Shown here: in pieces, positions 19,704-29,943 of the stretch | How positions within the stretch are numbered: the first letter of the stretch is position 1 | Layout of the letters: the number at the start of each line of letters is the position of its first letter | Assembly: GCA_903869365.1 (NCBI GenBank) | Contig: CAIPYV010000012.1 | Span: 1-34,023, forward strand | Source: an uncultured Chlorobiaceae bacterium | GTDB taxonomy: Bacteria > Bacteroidota > Chlorobiia > Chlorobiales > Chlorobiaceae | Direction: 5' to 3' | DNA: 34,023 nt | Notes under the pieces: model-generated | The model's database searches: none | The model's input: the letters and a program-made list of their open reading frames with translations, nothing else | Told to the model about the DNA's origin: nothing | Program-made: the position numbers and the translations under genes

Positions 19704-20120
19704 TTATGATAAGCAGTTAACTACAAGCCTCAATATATTTTTCTCATCCTCCCGCCGGTAACTGACACTGTCGGTAAATCTGCGAATAAAATAACCACCC
19801 AACCCTCCGATTTCTCGATCCGCAATGTCCAGAGAGATGTCCGGATCGGGAAGCAAGAGTATATTAAACGGAATGCCTTTATCCGATATCTCCACCACCA
19901 GCGAGTCGTCAACCTTGTCACAAGAAACCTCAATCAACCCTTTGTGATCGGGATATGCATAGTTACAGACATTGACGAAAGCCTCTTCAATCGCAAGAAG
20001 AAGTCCAAACTTTTTTTTTGGATCAAGACCGGAATAATCAGCACACTCTTGAAGGAATTCAGTGATTTCCGGCAACTTCTCGACATTGGCTGCAACTATT
20101 TTATTGAATTTCTCGGACAT
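19704..20120 (-). CDS. RsbW/SpoIIAB-like anti-sigma-type serine kinase
   Basis: A 138-aa stand-alone GHKL ATPase domain. The N-box is AIEEAFVNVCNYAYP with the Mg-binding asparagine present, G1 is ISDKGIPFN and G2 is IGGLGGYFIRRF. Such kinases phosphorylate a STAS partner and bind a sigma factor or other target when the partner is phosphorylated. Its ATG directly follows the stop codon of the STAS gene (TAAATG), which is strong evidence that the two form a kinase-substrate pair. It is the last gene of the transporter operon. No sigma factor gene is adjacent. Confidence 0.92.
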   Translation of the reverse strand: MSEKFNKIVAANVEKLPEITEFLQECADYSGLDPKKKFGLLLAIEEAFVNVCNYAYPDHKGLIEVSCDKVDDSLVVEISDKGIPFNILLLPDPDISLDIADREIGGLGGYFIRRFTDSVSYRREDEKNILRLVVNCLS

Positions 20121-20459
20121 TTAACAACCTGAAGCACTCAATGCACTTGCCAAAGAGTCATGCATGGGAAAAAGAGTACCAAAACCTGAAATATCGAACA
20201 CCTCTTTGACGCCTCCCTTGATATTGGCAAGAAGTATTTTTCCACTTACTCCCTTTACCTTTTTTGCGGTAGCCAGAAGAACGCGCAACCCGGCACTGCT
20301 TATATAGTCGACTTGTTCAAAATCAACAATAAAGAACGTTTCCCCTGCGGTAATCAGTTCGCTGAACTTCTTTTCATATTCCGGGGCAGTTACAGCATCC
20401 ATCCGTCCGGTAATGGTCACTATCAAAGCTGTCGCTTCCTTTTTGGTCTGAATAGTCAT
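20121..20459 (-). CDS. STAS-domain anti-sigma factor antagonist (RsbV/SpoIIAA-like)
   Basis: A 112-aa STAS protein from the ATG at 20459; a TTG three codons earlier is also open. The phosphorylation motif DYISSAGLRVLL is intact, and the second serine (Ser55) corresponds to the phospho-site of SpoIIAA. The opening strand ATALIVTITGRMDAVTAPEYE is typical. In partner switching, the unphosphorylated form captures the RsbW-like kinase encoded next, and the PP2C phosphatase encoded upstream in the operon (26985-28925) would regenerate it. It lies about 10 bp after the ABC ATPase gene. Confidence 0.93.
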   Translation of the reverse strand: MTIQTKKEATALIVTITGRMDAVTAPEYEKKFSELITAGETFFIVDFEQVDYISSAGLRVLLATAKKVKGVSGKILLANIKGGVKEVFDISGFGTLFPMHDSLASALSASGC

Positions 20460-20469
20460 TTCGGTCAAT

Positions 20470-21561
20470 TTATTTTTTTTTCAAAATCAGAGTTACTCTG
20501 TTTTTATTGTTCACGCGCTGATAATCAATACTCTCCGTCACGCTCTGGATGAGAGTCAACCCCAACTCATCGGGCAACAGGCTTTTGTCAAGCATGTTTA
20601 TGGCCTCACCTGTACTTTCAAAGACAACTTCAAGACTTTCTTTCTTTTCTGAATAGGCAAGATTGATATCAAGGAGTACCGTGGAAAGCAATGGATTGTA
20701 GATCTGAAGCATCTCTTCAACAAGCAGCAGAAGATTCTGCCGGGTTTTCACAGGGAGAATCTGTTTATCACAAAATGTTTCTATTTCGGCATTCATGGCA
20801 TACAAATCATAATCAGGAGATGCGATATGATAGCTGAAACTTCTTATCCTGTTGATAAATGTCCTTGTTTTTTCCTTCTGCGGATTATCAAAAATCTGCT
20901 CCGGCGTACCGACTTCATAGATAACTCCATCATCCATATAGAGCACCCGATTTGATACGTCTCTTGCGAAATCCATTTCATGGGTGACAATCGCCATGGT
21001 CATACCAGCTTTTGCCAGACGTCGGATAACGGACAAAACCTCACTGACCATCGTGGGGTCAAGCGCGGAAGTGGGTTCATCAAAAAGAATAATCTTTGGA
21101 TCCATAGCCATGCAGCGTGCAATGGCAACCCTTTGCTTCTGACCACCGGAAAGTTCATCAGGATAGCTTTCGGCCTTCTCGGCAAGTCCTACCAGTTTAA
21201 GAAGATCCATAGCTTTGCGATCAGCATCAACTTTACTCATTCCCAGGAGTTTGATCGGACCGATAGTCAGATTATCCATCACAGAGAGATGAAAAAAAAG
21301 ATTGAACGACTGAAAAACCATATTCATCTTCTGCCGAACTTTCGGCACATCAGACTTTGGATCCAATATATCAACCCCATCAATACGGATTGAACCGCCG
21401 CTTGGCCGGTCAAGCAGATTGATACAGCGCAAAAAAGTGCTTTTACCGGTACCTGAAGGTCCGATAATTGAAATCACCTCTCCTGTCTTTATTTCAACAG
21501 TGACATCTTTAAGCACTTCAAGATCACCAAACTTCTTGGAAAGATGTTCAATCTTTATCAT
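20470..21561 (-). CDS. Polar amino acid ABC importer ATPase with C-terminal degenerate anti-sigma (GHKL) domain
   Basis: Residues 1-240 form a GlnQ/HisP-type ATPase: Walker A GPSGTGKS (34-41), Q-loop Gln84, signature LSGGQKQR (138-145), Walker B ILFDEP (158-163) and H-loop His194. Such proteins normally end near residue 245. This one continues to 363 with a segment resembling an RsbW-like domain: [13 protein letters not shown] at the N-box and [17 protein letters not shown] at G2, ending RVTLILKKK. The N-box asparagine position is Ile287, and G1 reads ESTGEAIN with no aspartate, so ATP hydrolysis by this domain is unlikely. It may act as a docking domain for the STAS protein encoded next. The start overlaps the permease stop (ATGA). 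Confidence 0.88.
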
Positions 21562-23072
21562 GCGTTAATTATCTTTTTTCTTTTGAGTTTAGGGTTCGCC
21601 AACCGTTCTGCATACTCCATACCCAGCATCAGGAACCATGAAATAAGAAAATATAAAACAGCTACCATAATCAAGGGGAAGAACGCATCAAACGTCCGAC
21701 TGCGGATAATGTCACTGGCCTTTGTCAAATCCTGTACAGCAATGTAACCAACAATGGAGGTCATTTTTACCAGCGATATAAACTCTCCCTTATAAACAGG
21801 CAGAATCCGCTGAACGGTTTGTGGCAGCACAATAAAAAGAAAGGTATTCACCTTGGTAAAACCCATTGCAATCCCTGCTTCAGTCTGCCCTTTATCGATA
21901 CTCTCAATACCCGACCGGAATATTTCAGAAACATAAGCGGCAAAATTCATACCGAAAGCAATAACCGAAACAAAAACAGGATCAATATTTACCGAAGCAA
22001 AAACGACATAGAATATCAACATTAAAAACACAAGTACTGGTGTCCCTCGTAAAATTGAGATATAGGTTTGCGCAAGCATACGAAGTATTGCATTGCTCGA
22101 CATTCGCATAAAACAGACGATCGCACCAAGGAAGGTGCCGAACAACGTAGAGAGCACCGAGATTACAACGGTAGTTTTAAAGCCTTCCAGAATAAGTAAA
22201 TAACGATTTTCCTGCACAATATTGCTCTGAAAGCTGTTGGCCACACTCTCAAAAAAGGATACGGATTTCCCCTTCTGCCTGGTCTTCGACACAACGTTGC
22301 TTACGGCAATATTTTTTTTAAGCGCAAACATATTTGCTGCCTGTTCGTAGTAGGGATCAGAAAAAGCAATCTTTTTTTTGCGCTCTTCGGTAATGGACAT
22401 GACCGCTGCGCACATGTCGATCTTTTTACTTTGCAGGGCAGCAATCTGGTTTGAAAATTCAAGATCCCTGTAGATGATCTTTCTACCGGAATAGAGTGCA
22501 AACCTTTCGAGAAGCTCAATATTGAATCCGACCATCCGGTTATCTATAACGACATTGAAAGGGAGGCCATTATCACTCACGATGCCGACAACAAGCGACT
22601 TGCCGTCAGCTGATTGCTGAAGTTTCGGCATCTTTACGGCATGACCAGTCATCCAGTAGCGAATCATGGAATCATATTGACCGTTACTGCGCAGTTGCTT
22701 CAGGAAGCTGTTGAACTCATGACGCAGCTCGTTATTATCCCGATGAAACCCCATGCCGATTGGTGTTGAAAACAGAGCATCTCCAATGATGGCCAGATCG
22801 TCATGCAGACGGAGCAGCTCCATAAGCTCATCGTAGCTATAGATGGCAGCGTCAACCTTTCCGGACTTGACTCCCAGTACCAGATCAGAGGGTGATTTAT
22901 ACTGCAGGATGGAGGCGTGAGGGTAGGTGCTGCTGGCATACCTGTCGTGGACAGATCCAAGCAACACACCGATCCGCTTGTCTCTCAGATCATCAAGCGA
23001 TGTCAATGGTTTGCTGACAAAACCCGAACAGAGCAGACACACTGCTACAATAAAAATAAGCCGGTATTTCAT
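21558..23072 (-). CDS. ABC permease fused to one permuted solute-binding unit (short paralogue)
   Basis: I start at ATG 23072 (504 aa); a GTG four codons earlier overlaps the preceding stop codon. In the longer numbering: signal/anchor (about 5-22), lobe 2 of a type II binding protein first ([12 protein letters not shown] to [11 protein letters not shown], 36-145), then lobe 1 ([13 protein letters not shown] to FSDPYY, 164-256), then a HisM/GlnP-type permease domain (about 290-495) with the EAA loop [22 protein letters not shown]. Normal binding proteins run lobe 1 then lobe 2. The whole protein is a close paralogue of the C-terminal half of the 1015-residue upstream protein. The two permeases could form a heterodimer driven by the downstream ATPase. 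Confidence 0.9.
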
Positions 23073-23083
23073 AAGGATATTCA

Positions 23084-26000
23084 CTATTGCTTTCTCTTCT
23101 TTCTTTTGTATTTAGGGTCCGTTACCCGTTCAACATATTCAATTGACTGCATGAGAACCCATGAAATCATAAAATAGAGAACTGCCACCATAATAAGGGG
23201 AAAAAAAGCATCAAAGGTACGGCTCCGAATGATGTCACTGGCCTTGGTCAAATCCTGTACAGCGATATAGCCAACAATTGAGGTCATTTTCACCAGCGAA
23301 ATAAATTCTCCCTTATAGACAGGTAAAATTCTCTGAATGGTTTGCGGCAGGATAATGAAAAGAAAGGTGTTGACTTTTGAAAATCCCATAGCAATACCTG
23401 CTTCGGTCTGTCCTTTATCGATACTTTCTATGCCTGAACGGAATATTTCTGCAACATAAGCTGCAAAGTTCATCCCGAAAGCAATTACGGCAACAAAGAC
23501 CGGATCAATATTTATCGAAGCAAAAACAACATAGAATATCAACATTAATAAAACCAGTACCGGCGTGCCGCGCACCACAGCAATATAGATGGATGCCGCC
23601 ATTTTGAATAGTCGATGCGATGAGATGCGCATCGAACAGACGAGCGCGCCAAGGGCTGTACCGAAAAGAGTGGAGAGCGCTGAGATGATAACCGTAATCC
23701 TGAGTCCGTCCAGAATCAGTTGCCAGCGGTTTTCCTGAATGATGTTGCTTTGAAAGCTGTTGACAAGGCTTGTATAGAAGGAGGGTGAGGATGTATTATT
23801 ATTTTCTGTATTCCTGCTTCCAGGTTTTACAATATTCTTCTTCAGCGCAAACACGCTTGCTCGCAAGTCATAATATTGGTCAGAAAAAGCAATCTGCTTT
23901 TTTCTTTCTTCAGTAATCATCAACGTACTTGAAATCATATCAATTTTGTTGGATGATACAGCAGCAATAAGACTTCCAAACTCCATATCGCTGAGTTTGA
24001 GCTCTTTTCCAAGATATGCGGCAAACCTTTCTGAGAGTTCAATATCAAAACCGATCAGCCTGTTATCTTTAAGTATGGCAAAAGGAAGTCCTTTATCGCT
24101 TACGATGCCAACCGTCAGGACGCCGTTTGTTTTTGAATTCTGTATCGACGGCATGGCGGTATCGCCCTTGGTTATCCATCGACTGACCATATCGTCATAG
24201 ATTCCGTTCTTTTTTATCTCTTTTATAAACTGGTTACATTGTTCACGCAACCTCTCGTTCTGCTTGTTAAACCCAATACCTACCGGAACGGAAAACAAAG
24301 GGGGATCAAGTATGCCCAGATCGTCAGTTGTACGAAATATGTCGAGAAGAGTCTCATAGGTATAAATGGCCGCATCAACTTTTCCGGTTTTAACGGCCAG
24401 AATGATATCAGATGGGTTTTTGTACTGCAGAATTGTTGCTTCTGGATAGGTTCTGATGGCATAAGCATCATGAACAGAACCAAGCAGCACTCCGATCCGC
24501 TTCTCTTTCAGATCAGCCAACGATGAAATTTCCATTCTCTTTGCACTGGAAGAGCTGGATGAAGAAAATCGTCTGACCAATGCGGAAATATCATTTTCAA
24601 TATAGGGTTCTGAGAAATTCACCAGTTTTTTGCGTTCATCTGTCACATTGAAATTTGAAAGAGCAAAATCAATTTTTTCGGATTGCAGCGCAGGAATAAG
24701 CGCTTCAAAATTCATATCAATGATCTGAATTTTTTTCCCAAGACGCGCACCAATCAACTGACTGAGTTCAACATCCAGCCCTGTGTACCTGCCGTTTGAC
24801 TGAAATGAAAATGGCTCAATAATGGCACATGTCCCCATTTTCAGTACGCCATTGTCATGAACCGTGGGCGTTATGGGCAGGGAAGGTGTCGTATCATATT
24901 TTGTATCGACCCATTTATTCCTCAAACGTTGAAGAGTGCCCTCTTTCTTCAGATCCCGCAAGACGCTGTTTATTTGGGAAAGCAGTAGCGTATTGTTTTT
25001 TTTAATGGCTGCGGCCACTTCCAGTCTGGCAACCGGTTCATCAAGAATTACCAACTCAGGATTTTTGTCGACAATGTTCAAGAGAACGCTTTTATCGTAA
25101 ATAAAAGCGTCGGTTTTACCGTTCTTGACTGCAAGCGCGACATCAGCCGAAGAGGACATAACCTGAAAACTTGCATGAGGAAAGTTTTTCCGGGCAGCCA
25201 TGTCGCCTGCCGAGCCGGACAGGAGACCTATTCTTTTGCCGTCAATCTCTTTTATTGTTGAAATTGCTGCATGCTTACCGTCAACTCCTTTAACAGGGGA
25301 AAGTGCCGTTGTTGCAACTTCCTGGTTCTTGACGAGCATGACCTGCGCATTGAGATAGTATGAGTCCGAAAAATCAACCGATTTTTTACGTTCTTCTGTA
25401 GCCGTCATTCCTGAAATTATCAGGTCCACTTTGCCTGATTTCAATGCAGGTATGAGTGCCATAAATTTCATATTAGAGAATTTAACCGGGCGTTTAAGTC
25501 TGGCTCCGATGATGCGGGCCAACTCTCCGTCAAATCCTGTCACTCTGCCGTTTTTGTCAACAAAGTTAATCGGCTCACGTGTGGCGGTAACCCCTATTCT
25601 TAACTCTTTGCCCTGCACAGGGAGGGCAATCTGTCGTTCATCATAGGGTACCATATCCTTCTTGAACCATCGCCTGTTCATATCAGCAAGCGTACCATCG
25701 GCTTTCAGTTCACTGATAATGCTGTTCACCGATGCCAACAGCTTATCATCTTCTTTTTTGACAGCAATGGAAGTATTCTCGTTCTGGAGGGCTTCAGCCA
25801 GACAGATAAATTCCGGATTTTTCTTTGCGACCTGCAGAGCTGTAACTGATGACGTGACAAGAGCATCCAGTTGCCCTGACTTCATGGCGGCAACTGCATC
25901 CATAATGTCATCAAAGCTTTGAATTCTGGCATCAGGAAACTTCGCCCTGGCAATGGATTCTCCTGTTGTCCCTGTTGCCACCCCGATCTTTGCATATCTG

Positions 26001-26131
26001 GCATCAGCAAAGCTCGTTATGACCTGTCTGTTTTTACCGCATGCAATAAAAACAGAGGCAACGATAAGGGATGAAAACAGGAAGAGTACGCCCTTTTTCA
26101 TCTTCCGCACCATAAAAGTCTGTTTATTCAT
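23084..26131 (-). CDS. ABC permease fused to three permuted solute-binding units
   Basis: A 1015-aa protein with a lipoprotein-like leader (hydrophobic stretch ending VFIAC, Cys about 31). Six half-domains alternate in the order lobe 2 (about 40-155), lobe 1 (176-268), lobe 2 (292-408), lobe 1 (428-520), lobe 2 (537-653), lobe 1 (670-766), followed by the permease domain (about 785-1000) with [21 protein letters not shown]. Each lobe 1 has TEERKK or TDERKK and FSxxYY-type motifs; each lobe 2 ends near a conserved Trp (RRWF, NKWV, SRWI). A run of seven serines (523-529) links units two and three. Homology points to polar amino acids, but the real substrate is unknown. The start overlaps the upstream gene by 8 bp. 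Confidence 0.9.
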   Translation of the reverse strand: MNKQTFMVRKMKKGVLFLFSSLIVASVFIACGKNRQVITSFADARYAKIGVATGTTGESIARAKFPDARIQSFDDIMDAVAAMKSGQLDALVTSSVTALQVAKKNPEFICLAEALQNENTSIAVKKEDDKLLASVNSIISELKADGTLADMNRRWFKKDMVPYDERQIALPVQGKELRIGVTATREPINFVDKNGRVTGFDGELARIIGARLKRPVKFSNMKFMALIPALKSGKVDLIISGMTATEERKKSVDFSDSYYLNAQVMLVKNQEVATTALSPVKGVDGKHAAISTIKEIDGKRIGLLSGSAGDMAARKNFPHASFQVMSSSADVALAVKNGKTDAFIYDKSVLLNIVDKNPELVILDEPVARLEVAAAIKKNNTLLLSQINSVLRDLKKEGTLQRLRNKWVDTKYDTTPSLPITPTVHDNGVLKMGTCAIIEPFSFQSNGRYTGLDVELSQLIGARLGKKIQIIDMNFEALIPALQSEKIDFALSNFNVTDERKKLVNFSEPYIENDISALVRRFSSSSSSSAKRMEISSLADLKEKRIGVLLGSVHDAYAIRTYPEATILQYKNPSDIILAVKTGKVDAAIYTYETLLDIFRTTDDLGILDPPLFSVPVGIGFNKQNERLREQCNQFIKEIKKNGIYDDMVSRWITKGDTAMPSIQNSKTNGVLTVGIVSDKGLPFAILKDNRLIGFDIELSERFAAYLGKELKLSDMEFGSLIAAVSSNKIDMISSTLMITEERKKQIAFSDQYYDLRASVFALKKNIVKPGSRNTENNNTSSPSFYTSLVNSFQSNIIQENRWQLILDGLRITVIISALSTLFGTALGALVCSMRISSHRLFKMAASIYIAVVRGTPVLVLLMLIFYVVFASINIDPVFVAVIAFGMNFAAYVAEIFRSGIESIDKGQTEAGIAMGFSKVNTFLFIILPQTIQRILPVYKGEFISLVKMTSIVGYIAVQDLTKASDIIRSRTFDAFFPLIMVAVLYFMISWVLMQSIEYVERVTDPKYKRKKRKQ

Positions 26132-26906
26132 TGATCACTGCCGCTATGCCGCCGATGTAATATGGGTCAGAAAAGAGAACTTTTTTTGCACGTTCATCAG
26201 TGATGGTTATGCAGGCTGCAATCATATCAACTTTGCCGGAAATCAGAGCGGGAATCATTGCGCCAAAGTCCATATTGACTATTTCAAGTTTCCTGTCAAG
26301 CTTTCTGGCAACATAACGGGCAAGTTCTATATCAAATCCAACGATACCGCCGGAGGCATCGACAAACGAAAACGGCTCTGTAACACTGGATGTTCCCAAC
26401 CGCAAAACCCCTTTTGTTCCGCCTGATGCTATAACAGGCATTGGTGCAGGGTTTCCAGTTTTTGGAAACCAGCGGCGCATCATGTCATCATAAACTCCAT
26501 TTTTTTTAAGATCGCCTACAACAAGATCAATATTCTTTTTCAGCTCCTGATTTTCAGGCTGAACCGCAAATCCGTAATTGTCAATGGTTATCATCTCTGA
26601 AAGAACTACAAGACCACTGTTTTTTGCCGCAATATTCTTCAGAATCGGTTCATCATAAGCAGCAGCATCCGCTTTTCCGTATTTAACCGCCATTGCAGCA
26701 TCCATGACGCTGTTGAAGTATTTGAACCTGACATTGGGTAATTTTGAAAGGACAAGCTTGTCGGCAACAGTTCCGGTAGGAATTGCAATCTCTTTGCCAT
26801 CAAGCTGCTGAAGCTTTGTCAGTTTTTCTCTTTTGCTGCATCCGGAAAGCATAAAGAACGATGAAAAAACGACGACCATTAGAATCCTGAAAACTTTACC
26901 TGGCAT
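26124..26906 (-). CDS. Solute-binding lipoprotein with swapped lobe order
   Basis: A 260-aa lipoprotein with lipobox LSGC (Cys23). The mature part starts with what is normally the second lobe of a family 3 solute-binding protein (LDGKEIAIPTGTVADK, residues 35-50, to GVYDDMMRRWF, about 147). It then continues with the normal first lobe (VLRLGTSSVTEPFSFVD, VGFDIELARYVARKL, TITDERAKKVLFSDPYY). It ends right after that lobe, so the order is a circular permutation of the usual fold. It is not fused to a permease, and may be a diffusible or anchored extra receptor for the importer. A 78-bp gap separates it from the phosphatase gene upstream, so a second promoter is possible. Confidence 0.88.
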   Translation of the reverse strand: MPGKVFRILMVVVFSSFFMLSGCSKREKLTKLQQLDGKEIAIPTGTVADKLVLSKLPNVRFKYFNSVMDAAMAVKYGKADAAAYDEPILKNIAAKNSGLVVLSEMITIDNYGFAVQPENQELKKNIDLVVGDLKKNGVYDDMMRRWFPKTGNPAPMPVIASGGTKGVLRLGTSSVTEPFSFVDASGGIVGFDIELARYVARKLDRKLEIVNMDFGAMIPALISGKVDMIAACITITDERAKKVLFSDPYYIGGIAAVINE

Positions 26907-26984
26907 AACAATTCACGTTACAGGTTATATGAGACTTCTTTAGAACAATAAAGCAAAACGAGCTGCACCCTTTAACGCACCGCA

Positions 26985-28925
26985 TCATGCATCTGCAGCA
27001 ACACCACGATATTTCACAGCTACCATGGTAATATCATCAGATTGTGGAGCACCATTGGCATAGTGTGTCACTTCAGCTCGAATACAATGAATCATGGCAG
27101 CAATTTCTTCTCCAGAGACGTTTTTCACTGCCTGCAGCAGTCTGGACTCTCCGTAAAGCTCCTCTTCAGGATTTTTAGCCTCGGTCACTCCATCTGTATA
27201 GAGAAACAGAGTCTCACCCGGCTGCAAGGTGATGCGCTCGGTTTCATAAACTGAATCAAGGATGGGTCCGAGTACAAAACCACTTTTCAGTGAAAGATAG
27301 CGTATTCCCCCTGAATCCAGGATCACTGGAGGATTGTGGCCTGCATTGGCAAAACGCACCTCTCCGCTTCTGGTGTCAAGAATGGCGCAGAATACGGTAG
27401 CAAACATACAGCTCTCATTATCAGCGGCCAGAATGTTATTGACACAGGAAAGGATCTGGTCAGGCTCTCCCAGACGCTGTCCTTCTGACTTCAACAGGGT
27501 CTTTGCCACCATCATATAAAGAGCGGCCGGTACCCCCTTGTCAGCCACATCTGCAATAAGGAAACAGAGATTGTTGGCATCAATAAAAAAGAAGTCGTAA
27601 AAGTCGCCTCCGACCTCTTTTGCAGGATCCATCGAGGCAAAAATATCGAATTCGGGACGATCCGGAAATGCGGGAAAGAGGCGAGGCAACAGACTGGCCT
27701 GAATATCAGTAGCCACTTTTAGCTCGCTCTGGATGCGCTCCTTGGCTGCGGTTGTCTCGGTCAGATTTCTGATATACTCCTTCAAGGAGCTAATCATCGC
27801 CTGAAAGGAGGTGGTGAGAACCCCGACTTCATCATGAAAACGCACCAAGGGAAGTTCTACGTCAAAATTCCCGGAAGCCATCACCTTTGTTGCTTCTGCG
27901 AGCGATCGAAGTGGTTTTGTGATTGAAGTGGCAATGAAAAAGACCGCAATGGTCAAAAGCAGAATTCCGGCCATTCCCATGGCAACCATGGTCAAGCTCA
28001 GCTGTCGTACATTTTCGAGCAGCTCCGCTTCAGGAAAAACAACGGCCAGAGTCCATCCTGTCGAACGTATCGGAGCATAATACATCCAGCTTTTAACACC
28101 TACCAGACTCGTGTAAAGAATAAAGCCAGACTCTCCCCTGACCATCTTTTTGCCGATTTCTCGAAGGGAAGAGTCATGCCGCGACTCTGCAATACTGAAA
28201 AAGGTCTCATTCATGACAGCATGCTTCAGCGGATGAGCAAGCACCATCCCGTTGCGGGAAAGAAGTGCGGCATAACCGGTCTTGAGAATTTTGACGGAAG
28301 AGATGAGTGAGGTCAGTGAGTCGAGAGGAATGTCTACCCCCACAATCCCCTTGAGATGCCTTGTCCCTCCGATCTCCTCATAAAAAGGTACTGAACAGGT
28401 TGCCATCGGAATATTGCCACCACCCTCATCGAAATAGGGTTCACTCCATTCCGTTTTACCCAGCTCGCGAGGAATCTGATACCAGTCCCAGTAAAGGTAT
28501 GGTACATACTGGTACGATTTTTCCAGGCGGATGAAGGTGATTTTTTCTCTTTCCCTGCAGTAATAGGGAGCATAGAGGCGATGTGCGCGACTGAATGCGT
28601 AAGGTTCAAAAGCTACGCCCGAACCAGATATCCCGGGATTCTCCGCGACGGTCGACCTGATCAGGGAAAGAAGCTCCTTTTCGGTATATCGGCCTGTCTC
28701 AATTGATCGGGCCACGCCTTCCGTCACTTTTGTAACAGACATCAGCTTGCTCTCCACCCGATTGACCAATGACATGGCAAGGTTACGGGCATTACTCTCC
28801 AGCTCATGTTCCAGAATGAGACGTGACTGGTAATAGTTATACCCGAGCGTCACGGCAAAAATAAGCACGCTGCAGAGCGAGATCACAAGAATAAGCTTAA
28901 AAACTATGCTTTTATTGCCCAGCAT
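26985..28925 (-). CDS. Membrane RsbU-like PP2C phosphatase with periplasmic Cache sensor and HAMP
   Basis: The 646-aa protein has membrane segment 1 (about 9-29), a large periplasmic dCache-type sensor (about 35-300, with YWDWYQIPRE, GKTEWSEPYFDEGGG and GIVGVDIPLDSL), membrane segment 2 (about 309-334), HAMP (about 335-390), a short coiled linker, and a SpoIIE/PP2C domain (about 425-640). Metal-binding aspartates are visible in VGGDFYDF, IADVADKG, YTDGVTEA and SDDITMV. The expected job is to dephosphorylate the STAS protein when an extracellular ligand binds. The ATG at 28925 is chosen because a perfect AGGAGG lies 4 nt upstream; a longer frame to 28949 exists. The gene overlaps the upstream binding-protein gene by 14 bp. 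Confidence 0.95.
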   Translation of the reverse strand: MLGNKSIVFKLILVISLCSVLIFAVTLGYNYYQSRLILEHELESNARNLAMSLVNRVESKLMSVTKVTEGVARSIETGRYTEKELLSLIRSTVAENPGISGSGVAFEPYAFSRAHRLYAPYYCREREKITFIRLEKSYQYVPYLYWDWYQIPRELGKTEWSEPYFDEGGGNIPMATCSVPFYEEIGGTRHLKGIVGVDIPLDSLTSLISSVKILKTGYAALLSRNGMVLAHPLKHAVMNETFFSIAESRHDSSLREIGKKMVRGESGFILYTSLVGVKSWMYYAPIRSTGWTLAVVFPEAELLENVRQLSLTMVAMGMAGILLLTIAVFFIATSITKPLRSLAEATKVMASGNFDVELPLVRFHDEVGVLTTSFQAMISSLKEYIRNLTETTAAKERIQSELKVATDIQASLLPRLFPAFPDRPEFDIFASMDPAKEVGGDFYDFFFIDANNLCFLIADVADKGVPAALYMMVAKTLLKSEGQRLGEPDQILSCVNNILAADNESCMFATVFCAILDTRSGEVRFANAGHNPPVILDSGGIRYLSLKSGFVLGPILDSVYETERITLQPGETLFLYTDGVTEAKNPEEELYGESRLLQAVKNVSGEEIAAMIHCIRAEVTHYANGAPQSDDITMVAVKYRGVAADA

Positions 28926-29943
28926 TATTCCTCCTGGTAAATGTGGCATAGTCGGGAAAACGTTTAATCAGACCTTCACGCTGCATTGCACCTCCAACTG
29001 CTTCATAATCGAGCCTGTTGAGAGTGCCAAATGATCCCTTGCCGCTGACCGGCTCAACAAGATCCCGCATGCGGTCAAGCATCCATTTCTGGTGAATTCT
29101 ATTGGCAGGTACCTGAGCCTGGTGCATATACTTGATGACGATATCAAGCGCTTCATCAGGATGAGCAAAAGCGTACTGCCACCCCTCCAGTGAAGCCTTG
29201 ACAAAAGCATTTACCAGAGCAGGATCCTTGTTTATGGTTTGTTCCAGAGTATAAAGTCCATCTTCCGGAAATTTCATGCCCTGCTCACTGAGAAAAACGG
29301 CATTCAGCTGATCAGGATCCACTCCGGCGTTGAGAATGACATGATACTCGTTGTACCACATGGCTGAGGTGACATCAATGCCTCCACGCAGAAAAAGATT
29401 TACGGTATGGGAGAGAGGAATTTCCCTGACCTTGATACCGCGTTGTGCAAATAAGGTGCGAGGCGGGATAGAAAGCTCTTCTCCCCACAACCCGACCTTC
29501 TTTCCTTTCATATCCTCAAGTGTTCTTATGCCGCTGGATTTTCTGGAAATCAGCATCATGGAGGAACGCTGGATAATTTGCGACACATTCACAAGTTTTG
29601 TACCAGCAAAACGATGATGAAGGGCCGTGGTGAGCCAGAGAACAGCAAAATCAGCCTGGCCGTTTTTCAATGACTGTGCGGGAGAGTGACCTGCGCCACC
29701 TTTGAGAATGGTCAAGTCAATACCATGGCGGGCATAAATACCTTTATCGAGAGCCACATAGTATCCCGCAAACTGTGACTGAGGACTCCAGAGGGGAATA
29801 AGTGATGCTTTTTTGAGAGAAGTTCCGGCCAAGACGGGTCGGGTATACCAAGAATTTATCAACAACATCACAAGAATTCCCAAAAAAGCTGCTAATGATT
29901 GCCGTTGTCTTGAGCTCTTGCGCATCATCGTCATCATGAGCAT
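28912..29943 (-). CDS. NMT1/ThiY-like periplasmic binding protein
   Basis: A 343-aa protein with a signal or anchor segment (about 16-33), then an NMT1/THI5-like type II binding fold: LWSPQSQFAGYYVALDKGIY, GGAGHSPAQSLKNGQADFAV, MKGKKVGLWG and MWYNEYHVILNAGV. Relatives bind pyrimidine precursors, taurine-like or nitrate-like compounds. No matching permease is present, and the gene is translationally coupled to the RsbU-like phosphatase, so it may feed a sensor instead of a classical importer. AGGAG at 29953-29957 lies 9 nt before the ATG at 29943 and supports this start. It is the first gene of the roughly 10-kb operon. Confidence 0.9.
   Translation of the reverse strand: MLMMTMMRKSSRQRQSLAAFLGILVMLLINSWYTRPVLAGTSLKKASLIPLWSPQSQFAGYYVALDKGIYARHGIDLTILKGGAGHSPAQSLKNGQADFAVLWLTTALHHRFAGTKLVNVSQIIQRSSMMLISRKSSGIRTLEDMKGKKVGLWGEELSIPPRTLFAQRGIKVREIPLSHTVNLFLRGGIDVTSAMWYNEYHVILNAGVDPDQLNAVFLSEQGMKFPEDGLYTLEQTINKDPALVNAFVKASLEGWQYAFAHPDEALDIVIKYMHQAQVPANRIHQKWMLDRMRDLVEPVSGKGSFGTLNRLDYEAVGGAMQREGLIKRFPDYATFTRRNNAGQ
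28930..28935 (-). promoter_or_regulatory. Perfect Shine-Dalgarno deciding the phosphatase start
   Basis: AGGAGG on the minus strand, 4 nt before the ATG at 28925 and inside the end of the upstream coding frame. Strong ribosome sites are rare in this window, so this one supports coupled translation of binding protein and phosphatase. Confidence 0.8.

Follow-up and report, generated by a model that had tools for sequence, protein, structure and literature searches.

An amino-acid importer operon with a candidate partner switch and an RsbW-fold pseudokinase domain fused to the importer ATPase in an uncultured Chlorobiaceae bacterium

The 34,023-nucleotide stretch of DNA analysed here (the window; contig CAIPYV010000012.1 of assembly GCA_903869365.1, from an uncultured Chlorobiaceae bacterium) carries an operon of eight open reading frames (ORFs) on the minus strand, extending from 29943 down to 19704. 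The ORF list, together with Pfam/NCBIfam assignments for each of the eight genes, bears out an earlier note on this DNA, made from the letters alone, that all parts of an ATP-binding cassette (ABC) importer and all parts of an Rsb-type partner switch lie here, and every one of them is intact. From upstream to downstream, the genes and one domain within them are as follows.

28912..29943, minus strand: periplasmic binding protein of the NMT1/SsuA type (Pfam PF09084, E 2e-41)
26985..28925, minus strand: dCache-HAMP-SpoIIE/PP2C phosphatase, 646 amino acids (aa) from the ATG at 28925 (PF07228, E 2.4e-51; Cache, PF22673/PF02743; HAMP)
26124..26906, minus strand: lipoprotein binding protein of 260 aa, apparently a circularly permuted SBP_bac_3 protein (Pfam and alignment to 6svf)
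23084..26131, minus strand: BPD_transp_1 permease fused to three apparently permuted substrate-binding protein (SBP) units, in the order (NC)x3-TM, where TM is the transmembrane part (Pfam/NCBIfam)
21558..23084, minus strand: BPD_transp_1 permease fused to one apparently permuted SBP unit, in the order NC-TM (Pfam/NCBIfam)
20470..21561, minus strand: GlnQ-like ABC ATPase, 363 aa (PF00005, E 6.9e-35; GlnQ profile NF007027 over residues 1-239)
20473..20850, minus strand: predicted RsbW/SpoIIAB-fold pseudokinase domain, C-terminal in the ATPase, the proposed docking site for STAS (AlphaFold2, Foldseek, hhalign)
20121..20459, minus strand: STAS protein, 112 aa from the ATG at 20459 (TIGR00377, 85.5 bits; cut-off 53.45)
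19704..20120, minus strand: RsbW-like serine kinase with intact N, G1 and G2 boxes (HATPase_c_2, PF13581, E 4.2e-26)

The genes are closely packed. The SBP and permease genes overlap by 8 bp, the two permease genes by 1 bp, and the second permease and ATPase genes by 4 bp, all as read from the sequence. The gap between the ATPase and STAS genes is 10 bp from the likelier STAS start (ATG 20459) or 1 bp from an alternative TTG at 20468, the STAS and kinase genes abut with a gap of 0 bp, and the single 78-bp gap of the operon lies upstream of the SBP gene. Coordinates and spacing had been given correctly in the earlier note except at the first junction, where the overlap between the genes for NMT1 and the phosphatase is 14 bp (ATG 28925, after AGGAGG) or 38 bp (longest ORF, start 28949). 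Scans of the operon region for promoters and terminators gave scores no better than those of shuffled sequence.

The central feature of the operon is the C-terminal part of the ATPase. A Pfam match to HATPase_c_2 in this stretch is weak (E 0.0015, below the cut-off); profile and structure comparisons confirm that it is a second, divergent GHKL domain, as the wording of the earlier note had implied. The last 126 residues are modelled by AlphaFold2 with a mean predicted local distance difference test score (pLDDT) of 91.9, from an alignment holding 18 homologues. In a Foldseek search of the PDB, every one of the top 18 matches to this domain is an anti-sigma kinase from a partner switch (UsfX, SpoIIAB or RsbW; E 1e-5 to 1e-3), and the structures of the best ones also contain an antagonist or a sigma factor; ranks 22-23 are taken by SiaB with SiaC. 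When 84,980 species were scanned with the C-domain, it turned up in 111 places, 80 of which were kept, and linkage was counted on 79 distinct ATPases. The C-domain aligns with the linked kinases in hhalign at E 2e-12, and a profile built from the separate kinases detects 76 of the 79 C-domains at less than 1e-3 while matching no nucleotide-binding domain.

The ATP site of this domain has been lost. The N-box Asn and the G1 Asp are each kept in 0/79 C-domains, and in 79/79 the ATP lid is 3-5 residues long, versus 14 in the kinases. Because Asn, Asp and most of the lid are gone, the C-domain is, judged by its sequence, an RsbW-fold pseudokinase. The possibility that it is an active second kinase is ruled out by the same losses in all 79. 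The separate kinases of the set all (31/31) retain the Asn of the N box and the Asp of G1, along with the GG and last Gly of G2. The most conserved part of the C-domain includes the first helix and its approach, with D15, E22, F26 and C27 invariant; in SpoIIAB, the same side of the first helix carries residues that contact its partners, which is a hint only. Since the ATP site is lost, the C-domain looks like an output or docking site, and STAS is the candidate ligand.

RsbW-type kinases form dimers. An alternative arrangement is thus one in which the fused domain only recruits the kinase and STAS binds the nucleotide-binding domain itself. This is how the STAS protein MlaB contacts the ABC ATPase MlaF, a system in which the role of phosphorylation has been left open [PMC7367683]. 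However, the fused domain has the fold of those kinases that bind STAS antagonists in solved complexes, and the arrangement seems distinctly improbable here.

The other partner-switch proteins appear intact. The PP2C metal-site motifs GGDF, ADVADKG, DGVTEA and DDITMV can be read in the translation of the phosphatase. STAS contains a phosphorylatable Ser within YISSAGLR, at a position assigned by motif to that of SpoIIAA S58, and most members of the STAS family have ISSAGLR. The NMT1 protein lacks a permease of its own, and its gene travels with those for PP2C and STAS in range of the ATPase in 20/79 loci, the kinase gene being present as well in 16/79. Because it has no permease and its gene overlaps that of the Cache-PP2C protein, NMT1 would be the natural ligand sensor for the phosphatase.

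Linkage of the importer to the switch is not confined to one genome, the outcome that would have spoken against the earlier note. A STAS gene lies no more than 90 bp from the ATPase gene in 27/79 distinct ATPases, and these come from at least five classes, among Chlorobiota, Beta- and Gammaproteobacteria, Desulfuromonadia and Ignavibacteria. The C-domain itself is found in Chlorobiota, Ignavibacteriota, Bacteroidota, Thermodesulfobacteriota, Myxococcota, Pseudomonadota, Nitrospirota, Planctomycetota, Verrucomicrobiota and Bacillota, and isolates that carry it include Methylobacter marinus A45, M. tundripaludum, Methylovulum miyakonense, Nitrosomonas communis, Rhodocyclus purpureus and Trichlorobacter thiogenes. 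The kinase gene of Methylobacter and Nitrosomonas lies on the opposite strand, in convergent orientation. On a tree of the ATPases, the linked and unlinked states require at least 15 changes. Within the genus of the window, many genomes encode full-length relatives of the ATPase, and 22 of the 41 sampled have the C-domain. Orthologues of the window kinase (>45% identity) in these 41 genomes co-occur with STAS and PP2C orthologues and with the ATPase, mostly in one cluster; in two genomes (G006, G034) the cluster is split over contigs. Some of the loci come from metagenome bins that may be mixed: a binned Desulfobacteraceae locus (L137) groups with Methylobacter, a binned Geobacter locus (L119) nests within Chlorobium, and one pair of close copies (L154, L158) is divided between two phyla. 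Searching the whole phylum for the phosphatase, starting from G281, found nothing further.

Genomes without an adjacent switch can hold its parts elsewhere. A STAS orthologue (46-63% identity) is encoded at a distance in Geobacter/Trichlorobacter genomes (L113, L121, L122) and in L117, L131 and others. At such distant loci STAS is accompanied by the kinase (L171-L173), by kinase, NMT1 and PP2C (L174), or by NMT1-PP2C (L177). As orthologous linkage recurs in several phyla, the association of the importer with the switch gene set is far above chance. Conserved linkage across phyla, the fused RsbW-like domain on the ATPase and co-occurrence in trans together make a functional link between importer and partner switch, as read from genomes, well supported.

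The genome encodes one RpoD-like primary sigma factor and three extracytoplasmic function (ECF) factors, classed by length and sequence, and no sigma factor lies near the operon. Because this set contains no factor of the SigB/F/G type, such an output was rejected, and a sigma factor as final target, as in RsbU/V/W-type switches, is not found. The only candidate output that recurs in the linked loci is the importer. Since the pairing of importer and switch recurs in several phyla, the switch probably acts on the importer itself, turning it on or off, and not on a gene.

Information might instead flow in reverse, with the C-domain of the ATPase sensing transport state and either sequestering and releasing STAS or forming heterodimers with the kinase, and with the output located elsewhere. 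The C-domain does share its fold with kinases that dimerise, and the genome offers other possible outputs, including a second partner switch beside exopolysaccharide genes at C114. However, the operon already contains a dedicated sensor in NMT1 and the Cache-PP2C phosphatase, no output gene other than the importer recurs in the linked loci, and a SigB/F/G-type factor is lacking; reverse flow is therefore considered unlikely. These points also bear on the proposal of the earlier note that solute capture or transport state sets the phosphorylation of STAS. Its claim of a functional link is well supported, but the direction it gave has no specific support, and control by transport state is the less likely course, given a dedicated input in the operon and an ATPase domain that lacks an ATP site; some feedback of transport on the switch may nevertheless occur.

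The second switch (L170; G000:C114:36001-55000) comprises two STAS proteins, a kinase and two PAS/receiver-PP2C proteins, and adjoins exopolysaccharide glycosyltransferases and a sigma-54 activator.

In the favoured reading, the importer is controlled post-translationally by its own switch. NMT1 would report a periplasmic ligand to the Cache-HAMP-PP2C phosphatase, which would then dephosphorylate STAS. Unphosphorylated STAS would dock on the pseudokinase domain of the ATPase and so gate import, either by activation or by inhibition, and the RsbW-like kinase would reset the system by rephosphorylating STAS. This account of a polar amino-acid importer, with a dead RsbW-like domain on its ATPase, under post-translational control by a dedicated partner switch is judged somewhat more probable than not. 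The broader and more specific proposal, that a widespread class of importers is phospho-gated by docking of STAS on the ATPase pseudokinase domain, in response to another solute that a separate binding protein detects, is tentative and falls a little short of an even chance.

Several observations weigh against this reading. Nineteen Chlorobiales ATPases, which sit in a plain SBP-permease-ATPase importer, retain the C-domain although their genomes have no STAS protein above ~33% identity; because of these the C-domain is not only a STAS receptor. In the STAS-less Chlorobiales pairs tested, the domain is under purifying selection (omega 0.10-0.30), which implies some role in the absence of a switch. 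Omegas overlap between groups with and without the switch, as concerns relaxed selection after switch loss. Most STAS-less Chlorobiales ATPases have a disrupted DELGLxxI segment, which is what is left of the G2 box. It is intact in 35/40 ATPases with a STAS orthologue in the genome versus 4/22 without (Fisher p 8e-8, ignoring ancestry), a contrast that speaks for the favoured reading, although it comes mostly from one clade and although 45% identity was chosen as the orthologue cut-off, and most cases at 36-44% were left out, only once the data had been seen. An independent-pairs test of this motif has at most 4 usable pairs. Two loci (L115, L162) keep the motif without a STAS match, and in the duplicates L054/L056 the motif is broken although the switch is present; these speak against it.

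Purifying selection in lineages that lack the switch would fit a C-domain that is only a structural or dimerisation module, with the switch sharing the operon through a common signal and acting on another target. This account leaves unexplained the repeated linkage of STAS, kinase and PP2C to the ATPase in several phyla, as well as the loss of DELGLxxI from most of the large STAS-less clade, and it too is judged unlikely.

The importer itself is of the amino-acid type, combining SBP_bac_3 units, BPD_transp_1 permeases (HEQRo_perm_3TM) and a GlnQ-like ATPase, but its binding proteins depart from the usual design. Residues 33-148 of the 260-aa lipoprotein match residues 114-228 of PDB 6svf, a solved periplasmic amino-acid-binding protein, and residues 164-258 match 6svf residues 8-102. 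The order of the lobes is thus swapped, lobe 2 preceding lobe 1, and the canonical topology (lobe 1, lobe 2, lobe 1) is not seen in the SBP units. The arrangement (NC)1-4, with or without TM, is shared by nearly all proteins in the loci that bear SBP units; the sole protein that starts in the canonical order is part of a neighbouring transporter in L116. AlphaFold2 models the 260-aa SBP with a pLDDT of 91 and a predicted TM-score (pTM) of 0.81. Whole-length Foldseek matches to it are weak (HisG, TM-score ~0.4) and half-length matches fall on domain 1 of TmArgBP, as expected for a permutation, although the fold search alone does not settle the topology. Going by the alignments, the SBP_bac_3 units in this family of importers are circularly permuted. 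The permuted chain is likely to be a working unit, because no other SBP adjoins it in the plain-importer loci. A transporter binding protein that is naturally permuted is TpMglB-2 (Tp0684) [PMC4990184]; that protein is a Type I sugar binder, whereas the units here belong to the amino-acid SBP_bac_3 family and would have been permuted independently. No report of a natural circular permutation in the SBP_bac_3 family was found in the literature. These permuted proteins make up a second curiosity of the system, independent of the first.

The system resembles several known ones in part. Like RsbU-RsbV-RsbW and SpoIIE-SpoIIAA-SpoIIAB, it has a PP2C phosphatase, a STAS antagonist with a phosphorylatable Ser and a GHKL serine kinase; unlike them, it has no sigma factor and includes an extra, dead RsbW-fold domain fused to an ABC ATPase. 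In SiaABCD of Pseudomonas aeruginosa, a membrane PP2C sensor, a kinase and a STAS-type protein control an enzyme rather than a sigma factor, and SiaC activates the enzyme SiaD by binding [PMC8457831]. There the output is a diguanylate cyclase, whereas here an importer ATPase that has a candidate docking domain of its own is the likely output. As in MlaFB, a STAS gene is adjacent to an ABC ATPase gene; MlaB, however, contacts the nucleotide-binding domain and is not known to have a kinase or phosphatase, whereas the present operon encodes both and its ATPase bears an RsbW-like domain. The permeases are of the BPD_transp_1 amino-acid type and not of the MCE/MlaE type of MlaFB. Tandem SBP_bac_3 units fused to a permease, together with a GlnQ-like ATPase, recall GlnPQ-type importers, from which the present system differs in the permutation of its SBP units and the extra domain of its ATPase.

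The targets of known partner switches are sigma factors or enzymes such as diguanylate cyclase, and a search that covered few subscription journals found no report of such a switch controlling an amino-acid importer. EIIAGlc controls MalK post-translationally; the proposed mechanism, if true, would be a counterpart built from different parts, by which one nutrient would control uptake of another without transcription. With kinase, phosphatase, STAS and ABC ATPase in one operon and an evident candidate docking domain, the question of how STAS proteins regulate ABC transporters becomes directly testable, and the ATPase family is also present in cultured Methylobacter, Nitrosomonas, Rhodocyclus and Trichlorobacter.

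Variants of the locus occur. PP2C is fused to an RsbW-like kinase domain in L144 (1191-3614 relative to the ATPase), with STAS nearby, and in L182 (10279-12057), with STAS adjoining. Two operon copies show losses, of the kinase in L051 and of the kinase and most of STAS (a 31-residue remnant) in L052, and the genomes of both hold a second copy with STAS and kinase (L054, L056). In L099, a lipoprotein that looks BMP-type from its sequence lies between ATPase and STAS (1215-2267 relative to the ATPase). In L160 and L161, the ATPase is separated from the kinase and a permuted SBP by two genes, whose products look like a short membrane sensor and a Na/phosphate-cotransporter-like protein. Plain SBP-permease-ATPase importers with the C-domain and no switch genes are seen in L038, L039 and L042-L050, many of them at another shared site with the same downstream genes. 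In the window, an HU/IHF-type gene lies 270 bp upstream of the operon start, and the operon ends 6 bp from a convergent acetolactate-decarboxylase-type gene, both named by reading the sequence and not by family search.

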